In this document: one piece after another, positions 1-34,629 of the stretch
Position numbering within the stretch: the stretch's first letter is position 1
How the letters are laid out: every line of letters begins with the position of its first letter
Notes under the pieces: generated by a model
The model's database searches: none
What the model was told of the DNA's origin: nothing
Seen by the model: the letters and a program-made list of their open reading frames with translations, nothing else
Position numbers and translations under genes: made by a program
Assembly: GCA_947172415.1 (NCBI GenBank)
Contig: OX359191.1
Location: 4,526,001 to 4,590,000, forward strand
DNA from: Chondrosia reniformis
Lineage: Eukaryota; Porifera; Demospongiae; Chondrillida; Chondrillidae
Reading direction: 5' to 3'
DNA: 64,000 bases

Positions 1-880
1 GTGACTTCCTAAGTAGATTTACATTTAGGTCCCCTCAGATTAAAACCTCATGCCACATCGATAGACCATGCTGGATTATATTGAAAAGGGAGTGCAAGGC
101 ACGGTTAGTAGATGAAGATGGTGGCCTTTAGATGTTGCATAGCAACATGGGTGCTTGAAGTAAAGGATGCTTGACTTCTAGCAGTTGTACCTCAAGATCT
201 GATAAAGGAGAGTCTGATGGTGTAGAAATTACGGATGCAGAGCACTGTAGACCTCTGGAGATGTAGGTTAATAGCCCCCCTCCATGATGGTTCCTATCAG
301 CTCTATGTAATGTATACCCTTTATTGTTGACAATATCATCTGGGATGGAAGGATCTAGCCACGTTTCACAAAGGGTAATAATGGTGGGCTTCTGGGTTTT
401 TATTAAAAGGCTAATTTCATCAATTGATGGCAGAAGACTTCTTACGTTAGCACTGAAGACTTTGAAAACAATTTTTGAGGAATTGGGTAGAGAATCTAGT
501 TTGCAAGAGGATCCTACCGGCCTCGTAAGTGAAGAATTAGCCACAGCGGTAGAGTCATTTAGGTTACCAGCAGTTTCAGTAGAGTTACTAAGAAAGTTAA
601 GATCATTACAAGATGTAAAAGGAAGTTCATGAAGTAGACATCTGTGACAAAACCACTCACGCTTGTCCAGCTTATTGTATTGCTTTGGTGTTAGATTGCT
701 ACAGTGTAGATGGCCCTCTTTTCACACCTCGAGCATTTGATGGCTTTTTGACTGCAGTGCACTTCCTTTTGGCAAAATGTGCAGGGATAGCGATTTCTTG
801 GTCCCGGATTAGTTTCTATATCTCCACTTAGGATGATAAGTATAATACCACGGACTATCCCAGTTGGCTTGTGGCTGGTT
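1..880 (-). pseudogene. CR1-like LINE fragment: 2A motif, PHD-type finger, EEP endonuclease
   Basis: This is the N-terminal part of a non-LTR retrotransposon polyprotein, read on the minus strand and cut by the window edge. In order it shows a 2A-like motif (799-825), a cysteine-rich finger with C-x2-C, C-x2-C, H-x2-C and a final W-F-C-x2-C (about 780 to 640), then the start of an AP-endonuclease-like (EEP) domain whose open stretch is 128-544. EEP features are SANVRSLLPSIDEI, CETWLDPSIPD and GGGLLTYI. A frameshift lies near 715-725 inside the finger. The open frame stops at 128, yet the same frame resumes with RPPSS, so the expected Tyr of an IYRPP motif has become a stop codon. A second stop precedes the GDLN metal-binding motif near 30-40. 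PHD plus EEP is typical of CR1-group LINEs. The element is a dead copy; RT would lie beyond base 1. Confidence 0.82.
799..825 (-). other. 2A-like ribosome-skipping motif (LINE copy)
   Basis: The minus strand reads L-S-G-D-I-E-T-N-P-G-P, which matches the 2A consensus D-[V/I]-E-x-N-P-G-P. It is in frame with the first cysteines of the downstream finger and follows a short hydrophobic run (IILIILS). In known 2A peptides the ribosome skips the final Gly-Pro bond, giving two products. 2A-like sequences at the N-terminus of CR1-like LINEs are known from sea urchin, so this placement is expected for the family. Confidence 0.8.
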
Positions 881-10369: not shown

Positions 10370-11150
10370 GAGACGTTCTACGTGTTTGTAAATTTGTACG
10401 TTGTTCGAGTGTAACTTGACAGATGCGTTCTAAGTCTGTCTAAAGTTGTTCGAATGTAGCTTAGCAGAGGGGTTTTAAGTCTGTCTAAAAATGTTCGAGT
10501 GTAGCTTAGCAGAGGGGTTCTAAGTCTGTCTAAAGTTGTTCGTGTGTAGCTTAGCAGAGGGGTTCTAAGTCTGTCTAAAGTTGTTCGTGTGTAGCTTAGC
10601 AGAGGGGTTCTACATTTGTCTAAAGTTGTTCCAGTGCAACTTGACAGAGGCGTTCTAAGTCTGTCTAAAGATGTTCGAGTGTAACTTGACAGAGATGTTC
10701 TAAGTCTGTCTAAAGTTTTTTGAGTGTAGCTTAGCAGAGGAGTTCTAAGTCTGTCTAAAGTTGTTCGAGTGTAGCTTAGTAGAGGGGTTCTAAGTCTGTC
10801 TAAAGTTCTTCGTGTGTAGCTTAGCAGAGGTGTTCTAAGTCTGTCTAAAGTTGTTCGTGTGTAGCTTAGTAGAGGGGTTCTACATTTGTGTAAAGTTGTT
10901 CGAGTGTAACTTGACAGTGGCGTTCTAAGTCTGTCTAAAGATGTTCGAGTGTAACTTGACAGAGGCGTTCTAAGTCTGTCTAAAGATGTTGGAGTGTAAC
11001 TTGACAGAGGCGTTCTAAGTCTGTCTAAAATTGTTCGAGTATAGCTTAGCAGAGGAGTTTTAAGTCTGTCTAAAGTTGTTTGAGTGTAATTTGACAGAGG
11101 CGTTCTAAGTCTGTCTAAAGTTGTATGAGTGTAGCTTGACAGAAGGCATT
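10370..11150 (-). repeat. 45-bp tandem array B
   Basis: About seventeen copies of the same unit as at 8549-9092. Two unit subtypes alternate irregularly: one with GTAGCTTAGCAGAGGGG and one with GTAACTTGACAGAGGCG. Confidence 0.9.
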
Positions 11151-11512
11151 CTACCTGTGTTTGATGTTATCTGAAATTATAGCACTACAACTGTAACTTA
11201 TCACATTGTACAAATTGTGTAGTCAATCATTGTCTTTACTCAACCCTTTTTAATTGCATGTGACATAAAAAGTCCTGTAATGGATTGATCTCATGCTCAT
11301 GAAAGAGAGTTGATTAGACATTAAACAACCTTAAAATTAATATTGGTTAATCGTCTTGACTACCTTTTATTTTCCCGAATCAGGGTACTTGACGAATAAT
11401 AATTAATTACAGAAACAATGCATATATATGTTTATAGTTCTAATGAAAGAAAATGTTCCCTCCTTGGGACACATTTATTGAATGAAACGTCTAAAGGAAA
11501 AAAGAGAAAAAC

Positions 11513-11556
11513 AAGTAGTTCGAGTTCTGGCGCCCCTATGCAAACTCGAACTACTT
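11513..11556. repeat. Perfect 14-bp hairpin, cruciform motif copy 1
   Basis: Arms AAGTAGTTCGAGTT (11513-11526) and AACTCGAACTACTT (11543-11556) pair perfectly around a 16-nt loop containing GGCGCCCC. Related structures occur at 34928-34994 and 52919-52980. Confidence 0.8.
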
Positions 11557-11565
11557 GGCGTATTC

Positions 11566-12761: not shown

Positions 12762-13400
12762 TCATTCCTCAGGAGTCCAGAAGGAGGCAAAGGTGGTGAA
12801 TGGAGAAAATTCTGTAGAGTTACGTGATGCATTTGCTGGTAAAATAGCAGTGAAGTGGCTTGCATCAAAGAATCCTAAAAGTGGGTAATATTTTTCCACA
12901 TTTGGATGGTAAATAATGCTGTTGTTCAGTCGCTTGTCTTTAGCATCAAAGAGGTTCTGTAAGTCAGCTGCTGAAGTAGTCACATCAATGCATTGCGGCT
13001 GCCTGCGTTGATGTTGAACCGTTCTGTTACGCATAACTCCATACGGGCAAATTGACCTCTCCAAACCAATAGAGAGGGCGTGTAAATGAAATTGATTACC
13101 AGAGGATCCATCTTGTAGTGAACTGCGAACGAGGTCCAACCACTGAATTTCTGCTTCCTTAAAAACTGAAGCTGCACTTCATTCATTTAAGGGTAGAAGA
13201 ATTCTTGCAGTTGGTTGAATGACCTCAAACATATGTTCTCGATGTGTGATGAGGCTGTAGGCAGTCAGCAACCTCAAGTGAGACATGTACTGCTCTGTTC
13301 CAGTAAGGGTTAATGAAATCATGTTGTATATGCAGTTTCCACTTCCTGTAGTGTACACTGGAACATAAGACAATGTAAAGGCAGGTAAACGTTTTTCCCT
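12762..13400 (-). pseudogene. OTU-like cysteine protease domain, C-terminus of Helitron 1
   Basis: OTU domains are cysteine proteases, usually deubiquitinases, and occur in the polyproteins of some animal Helitrons/Helentrons. The nucleophile region reads TTGSGNCIYNMISLTLTG (13324-13380) followed by YMSHLRLLTAYSL, matching the OTU pattern DGNCLF...S..L.G....H..LR. The C-terminal histidine is in DASHFTAILP (about 12840-12870), and the frame ends at 12762. The residue three before the catalytic Cys, normally Asp, is Ser, which may weaken catalysis. A TGA at about 13179-13181 interrupts the domain after LLPLNE, but the same frame continues directly (SAASVFKEAEIQWLDLVRSSL), so this is a single nonsense change. 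The role of OTU in transposition is not known. Confidence 0.75.
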
Positions 13401-15530
13401 CACACCAGCATCTGTACTGTGGAAGCTGCTGAGAATTGCACGGGATGGCTGATTTACTTCCATCAAAGTAGCTGTAATATCACCCTCATGACACTTTGCC
13501 CAATTGCTGATCAAATCAGTAGCCGGATTTTCACAGTTCACCATACTTTCTAACTCTTCTTGAAGTGACAGTACTGGTGAAGCAACATGGGGAACAGAAA
13601 TGATTAGGGGCCGGGGTTGGATTATTAAAGAGAAATTATTCTGCACCGTGGGCATGTGTGTACCTGGAGCAAATTTGGTTGGCGAGTTGGTTTGGATGGG
13701 TGGAGAAGAATTCCTCTGCACTGAAGGTACTGGTCTAGCAATGATAGGAACGGAACTGGTGATTGGTTGATTGGGTTTGTTGGATAGAGAGGAACTACTG
13801 TGCACCAAGAGGTGGGATGTTTGTGACTCATTGTCTGATGTATCATGTGAACCACTTCTCTTCCGTAACCTGGCCATTTCTGCATGCACTCGTTTGTTAG
13901 CCTTGACCTTCTGTGGTTCAAAGCTTGATAGAGCCACACCATCTAGAGTCCTTACACGACTCAAGGCCACATATGCCATCCCTGGTTCGAACACTTTTTC
14001 TCCCGGGTCCAGCACAGCTGCATCTAATGACAGACCTTGAACCTTGTGTAGAGTAGCAGCCCAACAAAGAATGAGAGGTAACTGTGTTCTCTGAAGCACA
14101 GTACCCTGTCGTCCATAGAACCTGACTGACATTGGTCCAATTGGCACCACTTGCTGGTGTCCATTTTCAATTGGAACTTTGTTTAGTTGTCCAACTCGAG
14201 GATCATGAAATTTGATAAGAACATACTCAGGTAGTGTACCTAGGCTTGGTTGATATTTTATGTTTCCTGGCCATTTAAATCCTACTGTGATACCTCGAAC
14301 ACCATTCACAAGTCCATCTCCGCATTTTATGTTTCTTCTCAACATAATTTCCGACCCAACAACCAGTTTCAAACGCCTTGGTAAGCCACCACACTCTTTG
14401 TCACCATTGGGAATGAGTTCTTCTCGTATATGCTCCTTGGATACTGCCCATGTGTGCATCTGCGACTCTCCAAAATCACATGTGATGCTTCAAACAACTG
14501 CACTGTTGCAGAAGTCAGTTTGTGCAGCTCCTGGTCATTACAGAGGTCACAGTCAGAAACCCAAGGGAACAGTCTAAGTGAATTGCAAAATGGTGGGGAC
14601 GAAAGATCCACTTGATTTTTGGATGTCTTGCGAGTTGCTAAGATGGCAATGTCTTCCTGAGTGTGGTCTCCTATTCGAATTCTATTCAGCAGTGATGAGA
14701 AAGACTGATCATTGTGCTGTCGTATGTTATCTTCCAATTCAATCATGCTGAAGAAGTCTTTCCACAAATGGGATGAAAGCCTCCTTGATTGCACCTTTGC
14801 ACTGCTGAATATATAATGTCCATTTACAGGGGACAGTTGGTACAAATCCCCAACAGCAATAACATTAACTCCTCCAAAAATGTCATCCGTAGCAAAGATC
14901 TCGCAAAGCCTTTGATGAACAGCTACGAGTACCTCGTAAGAAACCATGCTGATTTCGTCCACAATGATAGTGTGAACTCCTTTCCAAAGTCGACGAAGTT
15001 CATTGAGAGCCAAAGCACTCAAATGCAACTGATGCGCTGACCTTCCATGTTCCACTTGCAGACTCAGTGCTCGATGAATAGTGAGTCCATTGATGTTAAG
15101 AGCAGCCAATCCTGTAGGTGCCATGACCGTGCATCCATGGAAATCCTTGCTTGCCTGCACTGATCTTTCAATATGCTCCCTGATGGCATGGATCAAGTGT
15201 GATTTTCCTGTTCCAGCCCCACCTGTAATGAACAGGTGGAAGCATTCTGGAGGAGATGATAGTGTTCCCATATGGTATTTATGTGGTTCTGCCGTATACC
15301 TGACAACAATCTCGAATGCCTCTCTCTGTTTTGCATTTAGGCTCAGAATGAGCTCCCTAAATGCTTTCTCAGTGAGGCGAGATCGAGAGATGGCACCATT
15401 GGCATCAACATCCTCCAGCAATGTAGGCGCTACATCTGCCAAGTCTTCCATATTCTCTTGTGCTATAAAATTTTCTCCATTGTACAGTCCTCCATCAGCC
15501 TCCTCCGTTGGATGCTTGGCATCTTCTCTT
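13179..15530 (-). pseudogene. Pif1-like helicase of Helitron 1
   Basis: Superfamily 1B helicase thought to unwind DNA during rolling-circle transposition. Motifs in order: Walker A GGAGTGKSHLI (about 15190-15230), Walker B IIVDEISMV (about 14940-14970), GDLYQLSPV (about 14830-14855), QHNDQSF near motif IV, VGSEIMLRRNI, ATLHKVQGLSLDAAV (about 14020-14070) and YVALSRVRTLDGV (about 13930-13975). The first part (14369-15451) and second part (13179-14459) are in different frames: a single-base frameshift lies near 14440-14460. The reading frame upstream joins the Rep part through one TGA at 15533-15535. A linker rich in Ser, Pro and Asn (about 13560-13850) connects helicase and OTU. Apart from these lesions all core motifs look intact. 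Confidence 0.92.
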
Positions 15531-15532
15531 TC

Positions 15533-17240
15533 TCAATGTTGCACATTAGGAGCCACAAGATCCATGTATGCGGCATCCTTTACAGCCTGTAGCTGTTGCA
15601 CTGCTCGCTGTACTTCCTCTGCAAATGCTTCATGTTGAGCATTGAGGACTTTAAGTTCACTTTTACGAGCAATGAAAGCAGCCATGGCAGTTTCATGGTT
15701 TTGGAGCAAGTCAACCTTTTCTTGCCTCCATGGAATGTACAGTAACATGGGACTATAGTAGTAGTCATCACCATGGCTTGAGGGTGTCATCACCGGAGTA
15801 CGTATACATGCCTGTTTGGTCCTTAACTTGATCCAACCCATATTATCTTGCAACTTGTATCGAGGTTGCGATCGCCGTCCAGGTCCTGTATAGTCGTCTT
15901 TTTTACGACTGTCTTCTCTTGGTATAGTATCATACCACACAGAAAAGTGAGCCAGAGTCATTTCTTCAAAGTCATCTCCCTTTGGCCTTGCAGCATGCCT
16001 ATCAAACAAACCTGGTTGAACGATGGCAGTGTCATGATCTCCCAGTTCAAATAGTTCAGCTCGGCTCTTGAGAAGTTGTGTTCGTTTCTCAGGTCGGACG
16101 GTGTTAACAAACACAACTTTCCTAGTCGAGTCCTTCAGTGGCAAATTGCAAAGTCTGTAGGCAGCCTCTTGGGCACTAAGCTCTCGATGTGACAGCATAG
16201 TATTGCCTACTTTGGATAGTTTTTTGCCAATTGAAGCATTAGCAGGTAGAGTGTTGAGAGCATCTCTGATGGCCTTCTTCACTTCCTCACTTTCTCCCTT
16301 GCACATGTAGGAACAAATGTACGATGCAGTACCATAAACTGATCCAATTAACTGTATGTCCATATTGGCCTGCCATGTAAGGAGCAGATGAATGTTGAAA
16401 GCATTGATATTTTCTTCCCCTTTGTTCCGCTTAAGAAGGTAAAGCGTGACTTGTTTCCTACATCGTTATTGTCCTTCAGGCGTGTTTCACACGACTAAGG
16501 TCTGGGGAAGTCAAAACGACACTCTTTCTTCTTTTTGCTGGTCTTCTGGCTAGTAGTAGTATGCTTGTGCTGCTGGACCCGAAGGATGGTTGATCTGGGT
16601 TCATCCTTTCCACAGCCCTCATCTGGACTTGAATGGATATGTACCTATCAATGAACTCAGGAGCTGATTTGCTAACTGCCTTGGTGTCCAAGTCTTGAGT
16701 ATCTTTAATCCACCACAAGGAATGAACATGTGGTGATCCTCGCAACTGAAACTCAATTCTCCAGAAGAAATCAATCACTTCTCCAATTGGCTTTCCTGAA
16801 CCTTTAATGACTTCTTTCACCAGACATTGGAAGCGATGTGCAAAATGGCGAGCAGTAACCACAGGATTACTGGCCATAAAGTCTCTCCTCTCTTCATCAG
16901 TTAGTAGGTCCACCTGCTCCTCAGTCAGGTTCGGTCCACTGCAGTTGGCTAAAACCACCATGAGATCTTTCCAGTGATGGTCATCTGCACTGAATGTGAT
17001 GAAGAATGTTGGGGGTCCAAGGGAATGCAACATTCTGAACAGATGGACTTTTGCTGACTGCCAGTAGGCTGCAGTACCACGAATATCCCTCATGAAACTG
17101 TAGCAGTTTTCACGTACATCTGGATTTTCTTTTGCCGATGATCCCTTCAAATCACCTGCTGTGAGATAATGTACCTTGCTTTCTTCATGTTTGTTTTTGT
17201 CTTTATTGGTGTTCATATTCTGAGTTCCTGGATTCCACAA
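15533..17240 (-). pseudogene. Rep (HUH, two-tyrosine) endonuclease of Helitron 1
   Basis: The Rep domain nicks and joins single strands during Helitron movement. It begins with a Helitron-like N-terminal block (RDIRGTAAYWQSAKVHLF, GPPTFFITFSADDHHW) and shows the metal-binding HUH motif in RGSPHVHSLWW (His-Val-His at 16722-16730). The catalytic tyrosine pair is in SYICSYMCKG (16301-16321), spaced Tyr-x3-Tyr as in Helitrons. The 16476-17240 and 15533-16363 stretches are separated by a frameshift near 16510, a TAG at about 16495 (after CRFDFPRP) and a frameshift near 16440. The upstream join at about 17240-17270 is also frameshifted. The final frame ends at a TGA (15533) that simply interrupts continuity with the helicase. 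Catalytic residues are all present. Confidence 0.9.
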
Positions 17241-18250
17241 ACGTAGAGCAATAGAAATGCTATTTGCAGCTTGTATGCTTCTACAATATTACAAGCCCAA
17301 AAGAGGTAAGATGGATGCCGTGCCCATCTAGCATCACTACTCATGACACGGATTTGAAAGTAGTACAAGGGAGAGAGTTTGGAATTCCTATGTGTTCCAA
17401 AACCCTTTCTTCCATTGGGATACAAAGTAGGGAATACCATTAGCTCCAGTTGAGGCTCATTGAAAACACTCACAGGTGCTGAGGAAATTCTTTCCAACTG
17501 ATGAACAGGAAATGCTCCATCCTGGATGAGTTTGGACACGGGTATGTCAGGTATCAATGTGTTGCTCCTCACAACACCCGACTCCTCAACATGGTCTGCC
17601 TGACATTCGTCACCTTCCTCTGAAAACTGTTTCTCAGATGGATTAACCACCTTAACATCATGGAAGATGGAATTATTTTCCTTCAGCCAATTCAAAGCTA
17701 GCATTACTTTTCGATAACGACAGCAGTAGTATGTCCTTGTGGGTGAAGTTGCTCTCTCTGGCACACATTCTGACTCACTGGGACGCTGCACGTATACAAT
17801 ATCAGTATCCTCAGCTGGACGAGGCAGTTGGTCTACCGTGTTGGTCATGGGGGTGGGGAAGTTGATGACCTGACCCCTAATTGCCCTCTGGCGTCCACGT
17901 GGTAGCACTACCAGCTTCATAAAAGGAGTAACATGTGAAATTAAGCGTTCCTCTAAGCTGTTGAGTCCTTGCAACTCCTTGGGGACTTCAGAGACTCACA
18001 TGTTATTATCCAAAGCATTACCTGGAATCTCCCTTTTCTTCAATGAGGATATACATCTGGTGCAAAACCAGGTTTTTTCGTCCACTGGAGATTCCAACTT
18101 TATAAAATCAACAAACTCATTGCCATCTTTTGAGAATTTTCCGTGCATTTGATAGCACAGTTTATGACACGCTGTACATACACAAGAAGGGCCTTCACAG
18201 GCCACTTTTCTGAACTTGGCTCTGTTTGTCTAAGGTAGTTTGTTGTGATG
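17213..18250 (-). pseudogene. DUF6570-like cysteine-rich region of Helitron 1
   Basis: This segment lies between the repeat module and Rep. It carries two cysteine clusters, CEGPSCVCTACHKLCY and TWFCTRC (18050-18190), suggesting zinc binding, then LEERLISHVTPFMKLVVLPRGRQ, a block typical of the DUF6570 region found in many Helitron polyproteins, and further on FPTLYPNG and FWACNIVEA. A TGA at 17996-17998 lies in an otherwise continuous frame (NNM, stop, VSEVPKELQGLN); Helitron 2 has NKMKVVDMPSVLLGLN there, showing that the codon was once sense. Two more in-frame stops (near 18224 and 18272) separate it from the repeat module. Confidence 0.75.
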
Positions 18251-18271: not shown

Positions 18272-18935
18272 CTAGGTGATGTCTGCCTTGATCAACTGCT
18301 TAGTGTCCACAGAATTCACCGATATTGATGGGTCAGGAATTTTCACACCATCTGTCTTTGTGCTTTCCTCATTGTCATCAGTTAATTGTAATTTTTCATC
18401 TTTCCTTCTGGATGGTTCTTGCATAGCAGCTAAAGTAGCTTGTTTCCCGCGAATGGTTTGCATCCTCATCCTTGCCTTCTCGCGGTCATTTTCCTTTTGT
18501 GCAAGACTTTGTTTGGCACGGTACTGTCGAACATTCATTGCTTTAGTCTGAAGTCTTTTGTCACGGCTTGCCTCATCCTCTTTGTCCACTTTTTCTCTGT
18601 AATTTCGTCTAATGGCTTCCAATCGTGCTTGCCTTGCTGTCTCATCTTCCTGCTTCAGTCTCTGGCTGGCATTACACTTTAAGACTTGCAACCGTGCTTG
18701 CCTTGCTGTCTTATCTTCCTTCTTCAGTCTCTGGCTGGCATTACACTTTAAGACTTGCAATCGTGCTTGCGTTGCTGTCTTATCTTCGTTCTTCAGTCTC
18801 TGGCTGGTATTACACTTTAAGACTTGCAATCGTGCTTGCCTTGCTGTCTTATCTTCCTCCTTCAGTCTTCTAGCCTGATTAACACCTGATCTCAAAAGTC
18901 TCTGTTGTCGTTGCTCACTTTTTCAGCTGTGAATC
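18272..18935 (-). pseudogene. STPR-like 23-residue repeat module of Helitron 1
   Basis: The protein consists of about five tandem 23-residue units of the form RLKxEDKTARQARLQVLKCNASQ, then a degenerate basic tail. At DNA level this is a 69-bp tandem repeat (about 18655-18880). Spacing and character (Arg/Lys/Gln-rich, helical) match the score-and-three-amino-acid peptide repeat (STPR), a DNA-binding module first described in a silkworm transcription factor. In a Helitron it could bind element ends or target DNA; that is inference. A frameshift near 18915 and a TGA at about 18940 separate it from the 2A-bearing leader. Confidence 0.7.
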
Positions 18936-18939
18936 TTGC

Positions 18940-19647
18940 TCAGGACAACGTCCTTTTTTTGCTTAACTGCTGATCACGTTTTTCTGTCTCATTAATTGGT
19001 AATCTTTTCTTTGCCTGTCGGTGCTTGTCAATGTCCGTTGTGTACTGCTGTTCAATTTCAATTGGCAAGGGTGATCCAATTGAGATGCAATAACTTTGCA
19101 TACTTTGTTCACCACTAGACTCTATGGAGATTAACTGTTTATAGCTGTCTTCTCGCTTTTGTGTTTCTTTGGAGGTATCTTGAATTAAACCTGCATCCCA
19201 TTCTTTATTAGCCTGCCTTTCTTTACTGGTGGTAGGGCCTGGATTGACTTCAACATCTCCACTTAAGAGGAGTAACAGTAGAAGCAAAGCCAGACATGAA
19301 GGTCGATGAAAGCGACGTTTTGAAATATACAGAAAAAGGGTATGCAATTGTTTTTGGTAGCGAACATATGTCGTCTTTAGTCTATTAATGTATGCATACT
19401 CACGGCAAACCAAACGGTTTAAGTTTTCTTGATTTGCATCGAGAGAGTATTGCGTTGGATTATGCAAAGCAGTACCATAGCATGTTTGAATAAAAGCACT
19501 AGGTTGGTCTTTACAGTTAGCTACTAATCGAGCTTGAAGTGTGTATATTTCAAAGAATATAAAGGTAGCAACAGCCAATAGACCAATTGCTTTTTTAATT
19601 GCAGGCCTTGTAGGACTAAAGAGTGTACCACAGTGTACAATGTGCAT
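18940..19647 (-). pseudogene. Leader with hydrophobic segments and 2A motif, Helitron 1
   Basis: A 235-codon open frame starts at ATG 19645-19647. Residues about 17-35 are hydrophobic (AIGLLAVATFIFFEIYTL) and could be a signal anchor. A basic stretch (KRRFHRPSC) is followed by a run of leucines and a 2A-like motif ending at residue 138. After it comes a charged linker rich in Glu, Lys and Gln leading to the repeat module. If 2A skipping works, translation would release a roughly 137-residue leader and start a new chain at Pro138. I recognise no family for the leader. A separate frame at 19524-19751 may hold the true N-terminus if a frameshift lies near 19640. Confidence 0.6.
19234..19260 (-). 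other. 2A-like ribosome-skipping motif, Helitron 1
   Basis: The minus strand encodes L-S-G-D-V-E-V-N-P-G-P, residues 128-138 of the leader, matching D-[V/I]-E-x-N-P-G-P exactly. It directly follows eight leucines. Motifs of this kind preceded by a signal-like hydrophobic stretch are known in sea urchin and sponge proteins. Confidence 0.85.
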
Positions 19648-19751
19648 GATTTACCGGGGTTATGTTTCATAGAATGTTTACATCTTTTGGAGCGATGACT
19701 ACACATTGTCAGTTTACCTTCAGTTGGAAGGAACTTTCCAATCAATTTCAT

Positions 19752-20377: not shown

Positions 20378-21030
20378 CCACACCCACTAACTCCACCCCT
20401 CACTCTACCTTAGCTCTACAACTGCACCCCTTACTTAGCCTTAGCTATATAGAACCATACTCCTACTCAGCCTTAGCTATAGGACCACACCCCTTACTCA
20501 TGCTTAGCTATAGGACCACACCCCTTACTCAGCCTTAGCTATTGGACCACACCCCTTTCTTAGCCTTAGCTATATAGAACCATACTCCTTACTCAGCCTT
20601 AGCTATAGGACCACAACTCTTACTCAGCTTTAACTATAGGATCACACCCCTTACTCAGCCTTAGCTATAGGACCACACCCCTTACTTAGCTTTAGCTATA
20701 GAACCATACTCCTTACTCAGCATTAGCTATAAGACCACCCACTTTACTAAGCCTTAGTTATAGGACCACACCCCTTACTTAGCTTTAGCTAAAGATCCAT
20801 ACTCCTTAATTACTCAGCCTTAGCTATAAGACCACCCACCTTACTAAGCCTTAGCTATAGGACCACACCCCTTACTTAGCCTTAGCTATATAGAACCATA
20901 CTCCTTACTCAGCCTTAGCTATAGGACCCCACCCCTTACTCAGCCTTAGCTATAGGACCACACCCTTTACTCAGCCTTAGCTATAGGACCACACCCCTAA
21001 CTCAGCCTTAGCTATAGGACCACACCCCTT
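20378..21030. repeat. 32-bp tandem repeat array
   Basis: About twenty imperfect copies of a unit containing CTTACTCAGCCTTAGC and TATAGGACCACACCCC. Variants carry TATAGAACCATACTCC. Non-coding. Confidence 0.92.
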
Positions 21031-21622
21031 AGGAAGCTTCTAGCAATCTTAGGCCCATTGGGACAATTTTTGTGCCAGCATTTCTTCGCAGACAACCTTT
21101 TAGCTGGACGGACTTTTGGACTTACATATAACCTTAGATCGTGGAGCATGTAACTTAGGCATACTCGACTCTCTGTCGTGCGTATAGTAGCATATATGCA
21201 GACTATACATTTGTTCACCTGCTACACTGGGTGGCATTGTCAATCAAATAGCATTACGCCCAAATTGTACTACTATCAAACCTTTCCGCATGTTAGATTT
21301 ACATTCGTATCATTAGAATAATCGTCGCTATTCGTAATTATTGCCGGGTCACTACTCGAATGGTTCTCTTGGTAATCAAAATGAATCATTTCACGATGTC
21401 AATACGTGTCAAAGGATTGCGAATACAGTCAATTCATATTCTTTTGACACATGGATTCATATACCGATATACGGTATTTCATATTTTATAGCTAATTGCC
21501 AGAGAACAGTGTTGAACAAATATGACAACTCATTCGGCTAGCTATATATGAATATATCAGCCCAACAACTGTTTATATAGCTCATACATACTAACACCAA
21601 TTAGAGAAAATAAATTACTTAC

Positions 21623-21806
21623 CTCAGCGACGTCTCCCGTCACCGATTTAGTGCTGAAAAGCACTCTTTTCGCTGTATGGCAGCTAAGTATCGCCCACAG
21701 TGCAAATAGGATGAATTGCTGAAAGCTCGAGGGAAGCTTCAGACTAGGAGAATTCATGAACAGTGTCAATTTCGTAAAGAGAACAACTGCTTACCATTGT
21801 TTCCAT
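21623..21806 (-). CDS. Candidate host gene: two exons encoding a signal-peptide-like start
   Basis: On the minus strand ATGGAAACAATG (21795-21806) is followed by GTAAGC; a 76-bp intron ending GAGCTTTCAG leads to an exon at 21623-21718 that ends GCTGAG before GTAAGT. Spliced, it reads METMQFILFALWAILSCHTA followed by KRVLFSTKSVTGDVAE: a short hydrophobic core with a small-residue end, as in a signal peptide. Both introns have standard donors and the exon is 96 bp, in phase 0. Downstream exons were not found and I do not recognise the protein. The assignment rests on splice signals and frame only. Confidence 0.4.
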
Positions 21807-21836
21807 GGTTTTTACCAACATTTACCAACGAAAGAA

Positions 21837-21905
21837 ATGGCATTGAGAGTAGAGGTGCTTAGTGCAGTGAACACGACAGCCATATTCCTAGCGTCGGGTT
21901 ACTTT
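21837..21905 (+). CDS. Candidate first exon, divergent from the minus-strand gene
   Basis: ATG followed by 22 more sense codons (MALRVEVLSAVNTTAIFLAS then GYF) ends at a GTGAGT donor. It starts only 30 bases from the ATG of the opposite-strand candidate, so a shared bidirectional promoter is possible, or only one of the two is real. Joined to the exon-like piece ending at 22039, the frame would run into a stop, so the continuation is unknown. Confidence 0.25.
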
Positions 21906-22027
21906 GTGAGTTAGACTGTATGTAATTCGCCAAATCTACCATCTATTTGGTATACAACCACACTGCACATAGGCTCTTTACACGGTGATAATAGGGGCTT
22001 TAGTGCTCCTTTTTTACAGGCGAATGG

Positions 22028-22511
22028 ATGGCAAGAATAGTAAGTGCATGAAATATACTATTTGCTATATGTGTAAAAGTGCACATGGTACAGTGCAAGT
22101 TACTATCAATACCTCCACTATGTACATAGGCCATCACACAACTAATGATACGGTACGGTATAGAGGTACGGCATATGGAGGAGGTACAGCATATATATGA
22201 CATTGTATTCCTGTTGATTAATGTTTTTTGTTATTCTTTCATGTAGATAAATGAGAAACAAAAAATGAAGAAAAAGTGGTAAGTGTATATAATGATACAA
22301 AGTCCGTATTATATACATGTTGATACAATATATTTAGAGGGAGATGTTGCGGAAGGAAAGAAGAATGAGGAAAAAAGAGAAGGCTAAAGTGGAAGCAGCC
22401 AAAGTAGAAGCCCCTGCTCCATCAACAGCATTGATACCACAGCCTGTACCACCACCCTCACCAAGCAGGCTGTTGCTACATCTTATTGCACGTAACTATA
22501 ACTACCATTAG
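22028..22511 (+). CDS. Candidate small spliced gene, charged protein
   Basis: Three pieces with consensus splice sites form one open frame: ATGGCAAGAATA (22028-22039, inside a 20-nt exon-like piece after TTTTTTACAG and before GTAAGT), 22247-22278 (after CATGTAG, before GTAAGT), and 22340-22511 (after TATTTAGAG). The product would be about 71 residues: a Lys/Arg/Glu-rich helix followed by a Pro-rich stretch (PVPPPSPS), ending at TAG 22509-22511, or continuing if the GTAACT at about 22491 is a donor. No family recognised. Confidence 0.3.
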
Positions 22512-30262: not shown

Positions 30263-30708
30263 AAGTGCACATGGTTGGGAGGTTTGCCCTGTTTACTGTC
30301 ATTTCCAAGTTATACATATAACCTAACGGGCACATATATTATTAACCATCAAGTAGTAGAGTACACTGTATTGAATGAAAAAAGAATTGGCATTTCGTGT
30401 ACCCTTTCTACTACTTATGGGTGTAACCATGGTCATTACACTGCTAATTGGAATGACCGTCATCCTAATTTAAGGAACTATTATTGTGAAATGGTGCAAT
30501 TGCATAAGAAATGCATTCATCAAAATCATTTGCGACTTAGAAATTCATTGTACCACTTGGCACACAAAAGGAAACATTGTAAGCGTAACGTTTGTTTAGC
30601 ATGTGTGTTAAGCTTACTGTTATTGCTGGCGGAGATGTTGAACTAAATCCGGGACCATATCACAATAATGAAATTTCCAGCCTTCCTGCATCGGCTGCTA
30701 AGTTGACT
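30254..30708 (+). pseudogene. 2A leader of Helitron 2
   Basis: The open frame 30254-30646 ends in a basic and then leucine-rich stretch (KRNVCLACVLSLLLLLA). The 2A motif follows directly but in another frame, so a one-base frameshift lies at about 30625-30630. The upstream part is Cys/His-rich (CNHGHYTANWNDRHPN, CEMVQLHKKCIHQNH), not obviously like the Helitron 1 leader, but the layout of basic stretch, leucines and 2A is the same. A second frameshift in a run of seven A near 30720 connects it to the repeat module. Confidence 0.6.
30631..30657 (+). other. 2A-like ribosome-skipping motif, Helitron 2
   Basis: G-D-V-E-L-N-P-G-P is encoded here, an exact match to D-[V/I]-E-x-N-P-G-P and in the same domain position as in Helitron 1. 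The variable residue differs (Leu instead of Val), as does the codon choice. Confidence 0.85.
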
Positions 30709-30709
30709 G

Positions 30710-31593
30710 ATGATCAAAGTGAAAAAAAGAGGAGAGAGTGAAGCAAGGAGGTCTTCAAGACTATCAATGCTATCAACATATCAGAGAAAGTGTCTAGAGA
30801 ATGAAACAGGGAAAGAAAATTCTGCAAGGCTAGCAAAAATGTCTGAAAACCAAAGACTGCACCTGCAGTGTGAAACAGAACAAAAACGTTCTGTAAGACT
30901 GAGTAAATCCTCTGAAAATCAAAAGAAGCACTTAAAATCAGAAAATGATCAACAACATGAGGGTAGAGTTGCTAAACTTTCCGAAAATAAAAAGAAACGC
31001 TTAAAATCAGAAAGTGCTGAGCAACGTGAGGCCAGAGTTGCTACACTTTCCGAAAATCAAAAGAAACGCTTAAAGTCAGAAAGTGCTGAGCAAACTCAGG
31101 GTAGAGTTGCTAAGCTTTCTAAAATCAAAAGAAACGCCTAAAATCAGAAAGTGTCGAGCACCGTGAGGCCAGAGTTGCTACACATTCTGAGAATCAAAGG
31201 AAGCGTTTAAAGTCAGAAAGTGCTGAGCAACATGAAGCCAGAGTTGCTACACTTCGTGAAAATCAAAAGAAGCGTTTAAAGTCACAAAGTATTGAAGAGC
31301 GTCAAGCACAGCTTGCTACTCTCTCTGTAAATCGTAAGCGAAGGCTACTGTCAGAAACAGATGAAAATCTGGACTCAAGACTAAGTGGTATGAAGGAATG
31401 GAAAAAATCAAGAAGCGTTAAAGAATCTGAACAGGAGCGTACTCTAAGATTGAAGAGAGAAAAGGATCAAGCAAGATTAAGAATGCTGGCATTTAGAAAG
31501 CGAAAACAGGAATTGTTTACAAACCATGAGTCATTAGATGAATACCATGGAGTGCAAAAAACTGAAAATGTACAATGTGCCAGTGTTACTTAA
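30710..31593 (+). pseudogene. STPR-like 23-residue repeat module of Helitron 2
   Basis: About ten units of the form LSENQKKRLKSESAEQREAR plus three residues (23 in all), the DNA showing a 69-bp period. A frameshift near 31120-31130 separates 30710-31141 from the continuation, and the end at 31593 is a TAA inside an otherwise continuous frame with the next segment. Sequence similarity to the Helitron 1 repeats is low, but unit length, basic/polar character and position are the same, which argues that period and fold are conserved rather than sequence. Confidence 0.72.
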
Positions 31594-31602
31594 CAGGTAA
31601 AT

Positions 31603-33048
31603 TTGGCTGTTGGAGATATAGATTTATATAAGGAATCTGCTAATGTATTAGAGTATGATAGTCTATCAAAAGAAGGACTACAAGGGGAACAAATATGGCT
31701 TGTCAACCATACAGTTTTGTATGGTGCTGCTAAGCAAGATTGCACCTACCAAATGTCTGGAGAGAAAGACATGGAAGAGGATGCAGATGTTACTGCTATT
31801 ACAGTTTCAGAATCTGTTGTTACAGTACCAACACTTCAGATTGCATTTCCATCTAATCAAGGCAAAAAATTGAGAAATAATTTGCAAAAGTTTGAAAAGG
31901 TAATTCTAGAAGGGCCTACCCATAAATGGTATTCATGTGGAAAGTTGTGCTATATACAGTTGGGTGCGACATTTATCTTGGATGTTGCAGTTGAGTTACT
32001 CTCTACGATAAATGAATCAATTCAAGATAATATTAAAACTGTTTGGTTTTGTAACAGGTGCAAGAGTTTGTTACAAAGAAAAAGAATTCCAGCAGTGTCT
32101 CAGTTTAATAAAATGAAAGTGGTGGACATGCCTTCCGTGTTATTGGGATTAAATACATTGGAGCAACGTTTCATTTCAAAGGCCACTGTTTTCATGAAAC
32201 TGGTGATATTACCAAGGGGTGGACAAAGGGCTGTCAGGGGGCAAGTGATTAAATTTCTTTCAAATGTTGACTCTCTCATTTTGGAACTCCCCCGTCTACC
32301 TAATGGGAAAGATATTGTTTACATTCAGCAGCCACAGTCACCAGAAAATGAAGACCAAAGTAATGGGCCTGATAAAGCTTACCATTGCTGTCGGTACTCT
32401 AGAGTTATGCAAGCACTGCAATGGCTAAAGCAGCATAACCCCTTGTATAAAGATGTCTCCATCAGCAACATATCAGAAGGTATGTTCGTTTATGGTGAAG
32501 AAGTCACCGAAGGTGAGAACGGCCGACAAGAAGAAAATCTTGAAATGGATGAAACTGGAATTGTCAGGTTGGATGCTCTCCAGCCTAATGTAGTTGCTGT
32601 TGAATTGCTACAAGAAAGTAAATCAATTGAAGACCAGGTTCATAAGTTACAAAGAATAACAGCTACACCATTGAGCATATTTGAGGATCGGGATGATCTT
32701 GAAGCCATGCCTTCTCCAACTTTATATCCTGATGGTGAAAAAAGCTTTGCTAAAATCAGAGAGACCAAGGTTTCACCTCTACAGTATTTCCAAGTGAGAT
32801 TGCTGAGTGCTGATACAAGATGGGCATGTCATCCATCGTTCATCTTTTGGGCATGCAACATTGTGGAAGCATTGAAGTTGCAGAGCAGCATTTCCATCGC
32901 TATGAGAATGCGGTCTTTCAGAGCAAGACACTTTGATAATAAGACTGACAATGAAACTGACGATGAGCACTTACTCACGGCTGGATTGCTAAGAGGACCA
33001 TTGGATGACAATCGCGAATTGCATGAAAGGAAGGAATTTTTTTCATGA
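31603..33048 (+). pseudogene. DUF6570-like region of Helitron 2
   Basis: A 481-codon open stretch containing WFCNRCKSLLQRKRIP, LEQRFISKATVFMKLVILPR, TPLSIFEDRDDLEAMP, LYPDGEKSF and FIFWACNIVEALKLQ. It parallels 17213-18250 of Helitron 1 closely, and is the best preserved part of this copy. The cysteine cluster upstream is reduced (HKWYSCGKLCY). It ends in a run of seven T (about 33040) where one base has been gained or lost; the Rep part continues in the next frame (MKDIRGTQAYWNSV). Confidence 0.82.
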
Positions 33049-34629
33049 AAGACATTCGTGGTACGCAAGCTTATTGGAACTCAGTTAAGATCCAATTATT
33101 TGCGATGTTTCGCACTCTTGGTCCTCCCACATTCTTTATTACACTGAGTGCTGATGATAATAACTGGGTAGACTTGATGATAGTTCTAAGCAAAAGTGGG
33201 GATCAAAATCTCTCAGAGGAAGAAGCAGCCAACCTGTCATCCAGTGGAAAAAGAAACCTGATGAGGTCCAATCTGGTGGTTACAGCTAGGCATTTTGTCA
33301 TCGTTTTCAGTCCTTTGTCAAGGAGGTCATAAAGGATCTGGACAACCCATTGGCGAGGTGGTTGATAACTTTTGGAGAATTGAATTTCAGTTGAGGGGTT
33401 CCCCACATGTCCATTCTATGTGGTGAAAAAGGATGCTCCCAACCTAGACACAACAGTTGGAAGGCAGATTGCCCCACAGTACATTGATCGGTACATATCT
33501 GTGAACATACCAAATGAAGGTAGCAAGGATGAACAACTGCGTTCTTTGGTAATGCACGTGCAGTAACACCATCATACAGTCACTTGCAAAAAGGCAACAA
33601 ACAGATGTCCAAATGTGAAGGATTGTCGATTTGACTTTCCTCAGCCTCTCTCAGAGGTTACAAGGCTGAAAAACAATTATGATCCTGGAAACAAGTCCAG
33701 GTTTTATGTTCTGAAACGATCAGAAGGGGAGGAAAACTGCAATCCATATAATGCACACCTTCTAAAGGCTTGGAAGGCTAATATGGTTATACAGTTGATT
33801 GGGTCTGTTTATGGGACAGCAGCATATGTTTGTTCATATATGTGCAAATCGTAAAGTGAGGATGTTAGGAAACAATCCGGGATGCACTGGAAAGCTTGCC
33901 TCCTCGGACTACAGCAAGAAAGCGCCTCTCAAAGGTTGGCAACACCATGTTGACACACCGTGAATTGAGTGCCCAGGGCAGCATATCGATTATCTCATTT
34001 GCCTCTCAAGGAAAACTCTAGAAAAGTGGTTTTTGTTAACACCACCAAGCCAGAGAAGAGAACACGCTTGCTAAAATGTAAAGCTAAATTGCTTCAATTG
34101 GAGGATGATTCCACTGACATTTTTGCTCCTGGCATCTTTGATAGATATGCCTCACGACCAGACTCACAACACTTTGCCAACATGACGTTGGCTTACTTTG
34201 CAGTCTGGTATGATGTGGATGGATGTGATGGTTCCGTTAGAAGTGGAGCAGGGCAGCCTCGTAGCCAACTGCAAAACAACTTGGGATGGGTGCACCTTCG
34301 AAGGAAGCAAGCTTGCCTTCGAATACCAGTACAGACAGTAGAAAGTCATGGTGATGACTATTATTACAATTTGCTGCTTCTTTACATTCCTTTGAGAAAG
34401 TAACCCGTGGATCTCCTGCTACACCACTCTTCAGCATTGGAGGCTTTCATTGCAAGGCAGGGAGAAATGGTTGTTCTTAATGCAGAGAACCACACTTTTG
34501 CAGACGAGGTGCAGAGGGCTGTTGTACAATTGCAAGCCTTGAAAGATGATGCTCATCAGGATGCAGTTGCACCTATGACACTCCAAGTGCATCGAGAGGA
34601 TGCTGCCAAACCTCCTGTAGAGGCTGAGG
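33045..34629 (+). pseudogene. Rep domain of Helitron 2
   Basis: Continuation with GPPTFFITLSADDNNW, then several frameshifts (near 33300, 33345, 33425, 33570 and 33855). The HUH motif survives as GSPHVHSMW near 33410, and the tyrosine pair as AYVCSYMCKS (about 33820-33850). Later blocks (SRKVVFVNTTKPEKRT, DYYYNLLLLYIPLRK) match Helitron 1. The C-terminal linker ends at 34629; the last residues before the TAA at about 34653 (TKYTFEI) come from the adjoining MITE. Confidence 0.85.

Follow-up and report, generated by a model that had tools for sequence, protein, structure and literature searches.

A 2A-like motif in Helitrons of the sponge Chondrosia reniformis is predicted to separate a leader protein from the Rep-helicase

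The window analyzed here is a stretch of 64,000 nucleotides from Chondrosia reniformis (C3:4526001-4590000), whose genome comprises 117,379,552 bases in 15 contigs. On its minus strand lies a Helitron copy, as indicated by a Rep domain with an H-x-H motif (GSPHVH in the window ORF) and a PIF1-like helicase (PF14214 and PF05970, respectively), and a second Helitron was found on the plus strand. The first copy is a broken relic that is read in pieces, i.e. as nine stop-to-stop stretches in several frames. The following features were assigned; letters denote Helitron families and L numbers individual loci.

20394..21031 (approx.), minus strand: minisatellite upstream of the leader, common to 11 of the 12 fetched family-A copies, the exception being L012
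19237..19647, minus strand: readable leader, 137 amino acids from the first Met through the 2A Gly, the first ~14 apparently out of the family frame
19261..19305, minus strand: Leu-rich context RPSCLALLLLLLLLS, which together with the next G gives the upstream hexapeptide LLLLSG
19234..19260, minus strand: 2A-like (StopGo) core GDVEVNPGP, from translation and genome census
Between codons 19239-19237 and 19236-19234, minus strand: predicted unjoined Gly/Pro bond
18940..19236, minus strand: start of the predicted downstream product (PTTSKERQ...), charged linker, up to the first frame break
18272..18922, minus strand: repeat region, homologous to the repeats of families B and C (Pfam STPRs there) and uncalled in the window ORF
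17996..18229, minus strand: Cys-containing segment ahead of DUF6570
17213..17995, minus strand: DUF6570 (E 2.7e-21)
16476..17288, minus strand: Helitron_like_N / Rep part with the H-x-H motif (PF14214, E 1.7e-27)
15533..16465, minus strand: Rep-to-helicase middle region
14369..15532, minus strand: PIF1 helicase (PF05970, E 5.2e-27)
13179..14489, minus strand: Pif1_2B (E 2e-6), followed by homology to the OTU part of relatives, assigned by similarity to L029/L030
12762..13178, minus strand: C-terminal tail
11512..11557, minus strand: 3' end of the element with a terminal hairpin (AAGTAGTTCGAGTT...AACTCGAACTACTT), then a T run
30631..34574, plus strand: second, decayed family-C Helitron with a 2A (GDVELNPGP at 30631-30657), followed by repeats, DUF6570 and Rep

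A sequence-only reading of this DNA had reported the motif GDVEVNPGP behind a leucine-rich stretch without giving its strand. Translation of positions 19260-19234 confirmed both the motif, which is on the minus strand, and the leucine run RPSCLALLLLLLLLS, which directly abuts it. The motif lies within 236 open codons (18940-19650, minus strand), in a frame different from that of the repeat stretch. The first ~14 leader residues of the window copy are unlike those of other family-A copies, apparently owing to a frame break, and the leader contains a hydrophobic segment (IGLLAVATFIFFEIYTL) in addition to the Leu tract at the 2A. The motif had also been placed upstream of repeat, Rep, helicase and OTU parts of the element. 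DUF6570, Helitron_like_N, PIF1 and Pif1_2B were indeed called downstream of it on the same strand, whereas Pfam analysis of the ORFs in the window (E ≤ 0.01) detected neither an OTU nor the repeat family.

The hairpin lies at the 3' end that family-A copies share. Beyond the minisatellite, positions 21468-22355 are 91-97% identical to the flank of the family-A copy L012, which may mean that the element is longer or, alternatively, that the two sequences lie inside another repeat. The long open frame at 10378-11166 (minus strand) consists of short units in tandem (such as TPLLSYTRTTLDRLR) and probably represents a minisatellite, not a gene. In the second Helitron, the 2A of which is located ~11 kb from the first one on the opposite strand, the Leu context of the motif has been lost.

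The whole 117-Mb genome was searched at the DNA level for the pattern GD[VIM]ExNPGP. The search gave 115 exact matches, 64 on the forward and 51 on the reverse strand, with a DV core in 82 cases and a DI or DM core in 33. Based on the base composition of the window, ~0.002 matches were expected, and the reversed pattern used as a control had no match in the whole genome. Chance or the compositional bias of Leu-rich, low-complexity sequence, a thought suggested by the Leu-rich tract upstream of the 2A, is ruled out by these numbers and by the fixed side and strand of the motif relative to DUF6570, so that we give this explanation practically no weight and the earlier judgement that chance is unlikely was borne out.

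Sites located upstream of DUF6570 (within 6 kb) or Helitron_like_N (within 7 kb) on the same strand were considered Helitron-linked. This applied to 69 of the 115 sites, while 46 do not precede such sequence. One of the 69 is ambiguous (C5:5976460, L021), with a Cys-rich motif instead of the Helitron linker behind the 2A. A motif private to a single copy is ruled out by this count, related Helitrons carrying it at the same place. The genome matches to DUF6570 (at least 117) were collapsed into 104 loci, and those to Helitron_like_N (at least 133, with 150 of 153 candidates scored) into 119 Rep loci. At 65 of the 104 DUF6570 loci, the same strand carries a 2A no more than 4.5 kb upstream, compared with ~0.23 loci expected under random placement, and the remaining 39 were without one. 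The three placement controls (downstream on the same strand, upstream antisense and downstream antisense) each gave zero loci. Likewise, a 2A lies at most 5.5 kb upstream at 63 of the 119 Rep loci, and the 56 without an exact 2A comprise 23 with and 33 without DUF6570.

The Helitron-linked sites were sorted by us into five families according to their 2A core sequence. Family A (core VEV) has 14 sites including the window copy, families B and C (core VEL) have 37 sites together, family D has mostly the core IES, and the four sites of family E have the cores MEQ, IEQ and VEQ. The Rep domains of these families fall in two groups, A/B/C and D/E, which are 25-30% identical to each other; the identities are 66% for A-B, 69% for A-C, 85% for B-C and 66% for D-E (L033). 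The Rep domains of L120-L122, in the ~3 kb upstream of which no 2A was found (three loci read of the 33 Rep loci without DUF6570 or 2A), are 24-34% identical and about equally distant from both groups, and Rep identities therefore do not decide between a single and a multiple origin of the 2A.

That leader and Rep-helicase share one frame, as the sequence-only reading had it, does not hold for the window copy, but it does for its relatives: an uninterrupted frame running from the leader through the 2A, DUF6570 and Rep to PIF1 was found in four copies of three families. The stop-to-stop frames through the 2A comprise 2,523 codons in L029 (C), 2,555 in L030 (D), 2,510 in L031 (D) and 2,312 in L032 (B). 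Pfam analysis of L029, L030 and L032 gave the order leader, 2A, DUF6570, Helitron_like_N, PIF1 and Pif1_2B, and L031, which was not scanned, is 98-99% identical to L030 outside gaps. STPRs between the 2A and DUF6570 are confined to families B and C (PF21107; E 2.3e-25 in L029 and 4e-33 in L032). OTU (PF02338) was called in C and D, and the B frame stops before the OTU region. All 13 family-A copies that were read (the window copy and L009-L020, of 14 sites) are frame-broken. Because the pattern search selects intact 2A sites, five DUF6570 loci without an exact match were read as well. Three of them (L034, L035 and L037) retain a 2A core that differs by a single residue; L036 seems to have undergone an internal deletion, and L038 aligns in the repeats alone. 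At the L039 locus, the 2A is located 2.4 kb upstream.

The selection acting on the motif was assessed from the 18 codons ending in NPGP. In four between-family pairs (B-C, C-D, B-D and A-B), this 18-mer is 72-83% identical, with pN values of 0.08-0.25 and pS values of 0.52-0.95, and the same 2A peptide is encoded by different codons. The 2A is conserved as a peptide and not as DNA. In the flanks of the three distant pairs, i.e. the leader and the following codons, identity is 18-38% and pN 0.41-0.61, and for the 350 codons after the 2A, identity is 19-29% in these pairs, compared with 58% for B-C. The two values for the 2A inside family E are 0.83 (pS) and 0.16 (pN). Constraint was also observed in the leaders, with a pS of 0.68 and a pN of 0.41 for the last 100 leader codons of B-C, and a pS of 0.61 and a pN of 0.25 for the E leader (62 codons). 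Among family-A copies, pN and pS are close to each other, as expected of dead copies, and this comparison carries no information on selection; the two D copies are near-identical and equally uninformative in this respect. The conservation of the 2A may partly reflect the hydrophobic tail of the leader rather than skipping.

Counted through the 2A Gly, the leader is 172 amino acids long in A (L011), 267 in B (L032:8140-8940, minus strand), 244 in C (L029:396-1127, plus strand) and 281 in D (L030:8052-8894, minus strand). The leaders of B, C and D contain Cys/Trp repeats (CGWG/CGWD), followed by a basic stretch and the Leu tract at the end. A further hydrophobic segment is located upstream, at amino acids 56-72 in A (L011), 3-19 in B and 19-35 in D, and in family C (L029 and L034) it precedes the first AUG and lies behind stop codons. 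In the family-E copy L033, the 2A follows only 41 amino acids past the first Met, in a frame of 146 codons. No Pfam family was called in the leaders of B, D and the window copy, and the sole match of the C leader, TMEM232 (E 0.011), was below the cut-off; the phmmer search of the B leader against the PDB gave only matches with E ≥ 0.077.

The leaders were then compared with the 2A removed. In a set of ~10 sequences, the leaders of B, C and D are similar to each other with E 2.5e-18 or better (phmmer); with the repeats masked in addition, E is still 3e-8 for B-D but 0.02-0.03 for C-D. For the A and D leaders, phmmer gave E values of 0.013 and 0.062 (0.016 and 0.065 with masked repeats) and the profile comparison an E of 0.0073 with a probability of 5% over 49 columns, while the A leader did not match the joint B/C/D profile. 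The two E leaders match each other only. In view of the borderline A-D values, the idea of three unrelated leader types meeting at the 2A was dropped; the A leader may be a diverged relative. Judged by these comparisons, the leader is diverging very fast while the 2A stays, and in A and E it may have been replaced.

Earlier work describes 2A recoding in RNA viruses, in non-LTR retrotransposons and in certain immune genes of sea urchins (PMC4981915), and rates it as widespread among RNA viruses but rare among cellular organisms (PMC12846837). The latter source, a 2026 survey of viral StopGo sequences, names LLLLSG-like sequences as a natural class; in two of its L-rich motifs, 2 and 6, the D is preceded by a terminal (A/S/C)G, and motif 6 was active when assayed in lysate (PMC12846837). 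The upstream hexapeptide of family A, LLLLSG, is identical to the name of this class, and LLLLAG of family C fits it. Families B and D (LLLLGG) depart by one residue, having GG rather than (A/S/C)G before D, and family E has HG before D, as well as Met instead of V/I at position 13 in L033. The core D(V/I)ExNPGP is present in the window copy and in B, C and D. The 2A stands inside a continuous frame with coding sequence on both sides in L029-L032, and in the window copy only within the 236 codons. The sponge motif thus resembles viral 2A/StopGo sequences (FMDV-type, D(V/I)ExNPGP) in its core octapeptide, the G before D, the L-rich hexapeptide and its place at an internal junction of a long ORF. 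It differs from them in belonging to a rolling-circle DNA transposon and in having V, L, S or Q at position 15.

Non-LTR retrotransposons with a 2A, described from Trypanosoma cruzi, sea urchin and others (PMC4981915), are likewise mobile elements in which the 2A stands between a hydrophobic tract and the replication enzymes. In the sponge Helitrons, however, DUF6570, Rep and PIF1 stand downstream of the 2A instead of an APE endonuclease and reverse transcriptase, no RT or APE family being called in the window ORFs or the B, C and D proteins, and the Helitron leaders show no convincing similarity to the three LINE-type leaders compared. The sea urchin NLR 2A signal SpNLR2A6 shares the Leu-rich stretch with (S)GDVExNPGP and a possible tie to the secretory pathway. 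It is described as both a recoding element and a signal sequence, and it is an N-terminal sequence of 26 amino acids (passages of PMC4981915), whereas the sponge 2A ends a much longer leader in A-D. In SpNLR2A6 as translated from the printed primer, the Leu tract precedes SGDVETNPGP. With Helentron-type Helitrons, the sponge elements have in common the Rep and PIF1 helicase and, in C and D, the OTU; OTU genes are noted in Helentrons in the available part of PMC4067079. Unlike in Helentrons, the OTU is fused in frame and a leader and 2A are added. No AP endonuclease family was called in the B, C and D proteins scanned (Pfam, E ≤ 0.01), and the word 'polyprotein' is absent from the Helentron paper (PMC4067079). 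The literature searched, with subscription papers, preprints and repeat databases outside its scope, gave in the portions available no link of Helitrons with 2A-like sequences, and the few co-mentions of '2A peptide', judged by title and opening lines of the abstract, concerned other subjects.

A scan of viral contigs gave 289 relatives. Among the best 80 of these 289, the match covers query residues 893-1140 only, i.e. it is confined to the helicase part, and these relatives are therefore uninformative on the 2A. No relatives were found in viral contigs with the Rep alone or in two scans of prokaryote genome contigs.

Taken together, our results support the earlier proposal of a Helitron polyprotein divided by a 2A into a leader and a Rep-helicase, in which skipping is a prediction. 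We put the probability that the 2A separates the two proteins by ribosome skipping within one long Helitron frame at roughly 0.8. The evidence from sequence is strong; the skipping itself, the destination of each product and the role of the leader go beyond it and are inferred. Against this reading speak the broken frames of the family-A copies read together with their similar pN and pS, the end of the B frame ahead of the OTU region, the 56 Rep loci that lack an exact 2A, the position of the hydrophobic segment of family C before the first AUG, the departures of B, D and E in the residues before D, the early position of the 2A in the short E frame, and the inhibition of 2A by some upstream proteins that are translocated into the ER (PMC2978324). 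In the proposed mechanism, the Leu-rich stretch and GDxExNPG would act in the exit tunnel and block the formation of the Gly-Pro bond. The leader would be freed with NPG at its end, and the ribosome would resume at Pro to produce the Rep-helicase protein. The leader would then be a separate protein of 172-281 amino acids in A-D, which is probably membrane-associated or secretory, and its removal would leave the Rep-helicase free to reach the nucleus. In the simplest reading, a membrane-type protein and a nuclear enzyme would be encoded by one transcript and must not stay fused.

A more far-reaching version, which we put forward tentatively and at odds below even, concerns a lineage of animal Helitrons that bear DUF6570. 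According to this version, the 2A would be an old, fixed junction, at which skipping yields a membrane or secretory leader with Cys/Trp repeats in B, C and D and a nuclear Rep-helicase. The leader would evolve at a very high rate, whole leader modules perhaps having been replaced in A and E, and since the 2A is kept all the while, selection would act on the separation itself.

An alternative role for the motif would be dual targeting, by signal-type hydrophobic segments of the leader and a 2A that works only partly. The skipped product would be a free nuclear Rep-helicase, while the unskipped product would be directed to the ER or membrane and be inactive, so that the efficiency of the 2A would set the dose of transposase, as proposed for the sea urchin NLR 2A leaders. 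Such a role would fit the hydrophobic segments in the leaders of A, B and D and at the 2A in A-D, as well as the joint signal and recoding function of SpNLR2A6 with its Leu tract (passages of PMC4981915). However, the 2A of A-D does not end a 26-amino-acid signal peptide but a leader of 172-281 amino acids, and for B, C and D the Cys/Trp repeats that lie between indicate that the leader may be a protein in its own right. We therefore consider partial skipping of this kind unlikely, although we rank it next after the favored reading of simple separation.

Lower still do we rate two explanations in which the 2A has no present function in Helitrons. The motif might have been active in an ancestor or donor and be idle now, the true Rep start being a downstream Met and the ORF of leader and 2A decaying. 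The broken frames of all 13 family-A copies read and the pN close to pS within this family would be expected in that case, but the purifying selection on the 2A between families (pN 0.08-0.25, pS 0.52-0.95), the constraint on the B-C and E leaders and the four frames that run uninterrupted through the 2A make it improbable. Helitrons capture sequence, and the 2A might also have arrived with the 5' ends of LINEs, its presence in several Helitrons then reflecting capture rather than function. By our reading of two match lists, at least 22 of the 46 2A sites not linked to Helitrons are followed by an APE or RT match (150 of 159 APE and 150 of 1,688 RT candidates were scored), and these sites look like the known non-LTR retrotransposon case. 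When the A-E leaders were compared with three LINE-type leaders after removal of the 2A, however, the best E was 0.076 in the set of ~10 sequences (a fourth candidate, L021, was too short for comparison), and we regard capture, too, as improbable. Separation of leader and Rep-helicase by ribosome skipping thus remains the reading that we favor.

If the prediction is true, a DNA transposon would be using a device hitherto known from viruses, from retrotransposons and from a small number of immune genes. With the 2A present in several families of a DNA transposon and under selection at the protein level, the production of two proteins from one frame, one of them apparently membrane-type, becomes testable, and the sponge Helitrons supply a set of natural 2A variants. 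Should the leader act at the membrane or outside the cell, this would suggest that the life cycle of Helitrons includes a step not suspected before, e.g. passage between cells.

A few further elements were observed in the course of the analysis. At the start of the window (128-822, minus strand, L008) lies a fragment of LINE type. It carries a separate 2A, GDIETNPGP, behind which stands a Cys-rich motif; its APE match is at C3:4525834-4526454, and an RT match is located just outside the window (C3:4524241-4524975). Among the 2A sites with a VER core, C9:2448046 precedes an APE match, and C5:1926376 and C5:1934078 lie 7.7 kb apart. The Helitrons L120 and L122 have N-terminal repeats of the GRPTGTTAEAGYDVS type (GRPTGTT-type), which may be AT-hook-like. 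Finally, three family-A Helitrons (L015-L017, at C5:4587405, 4599370 and 4611335) follow one another at an exact spacing of 11,965 bp, a tandem array that may have been produced by rolling-circle activity or represent a segmental repeat.
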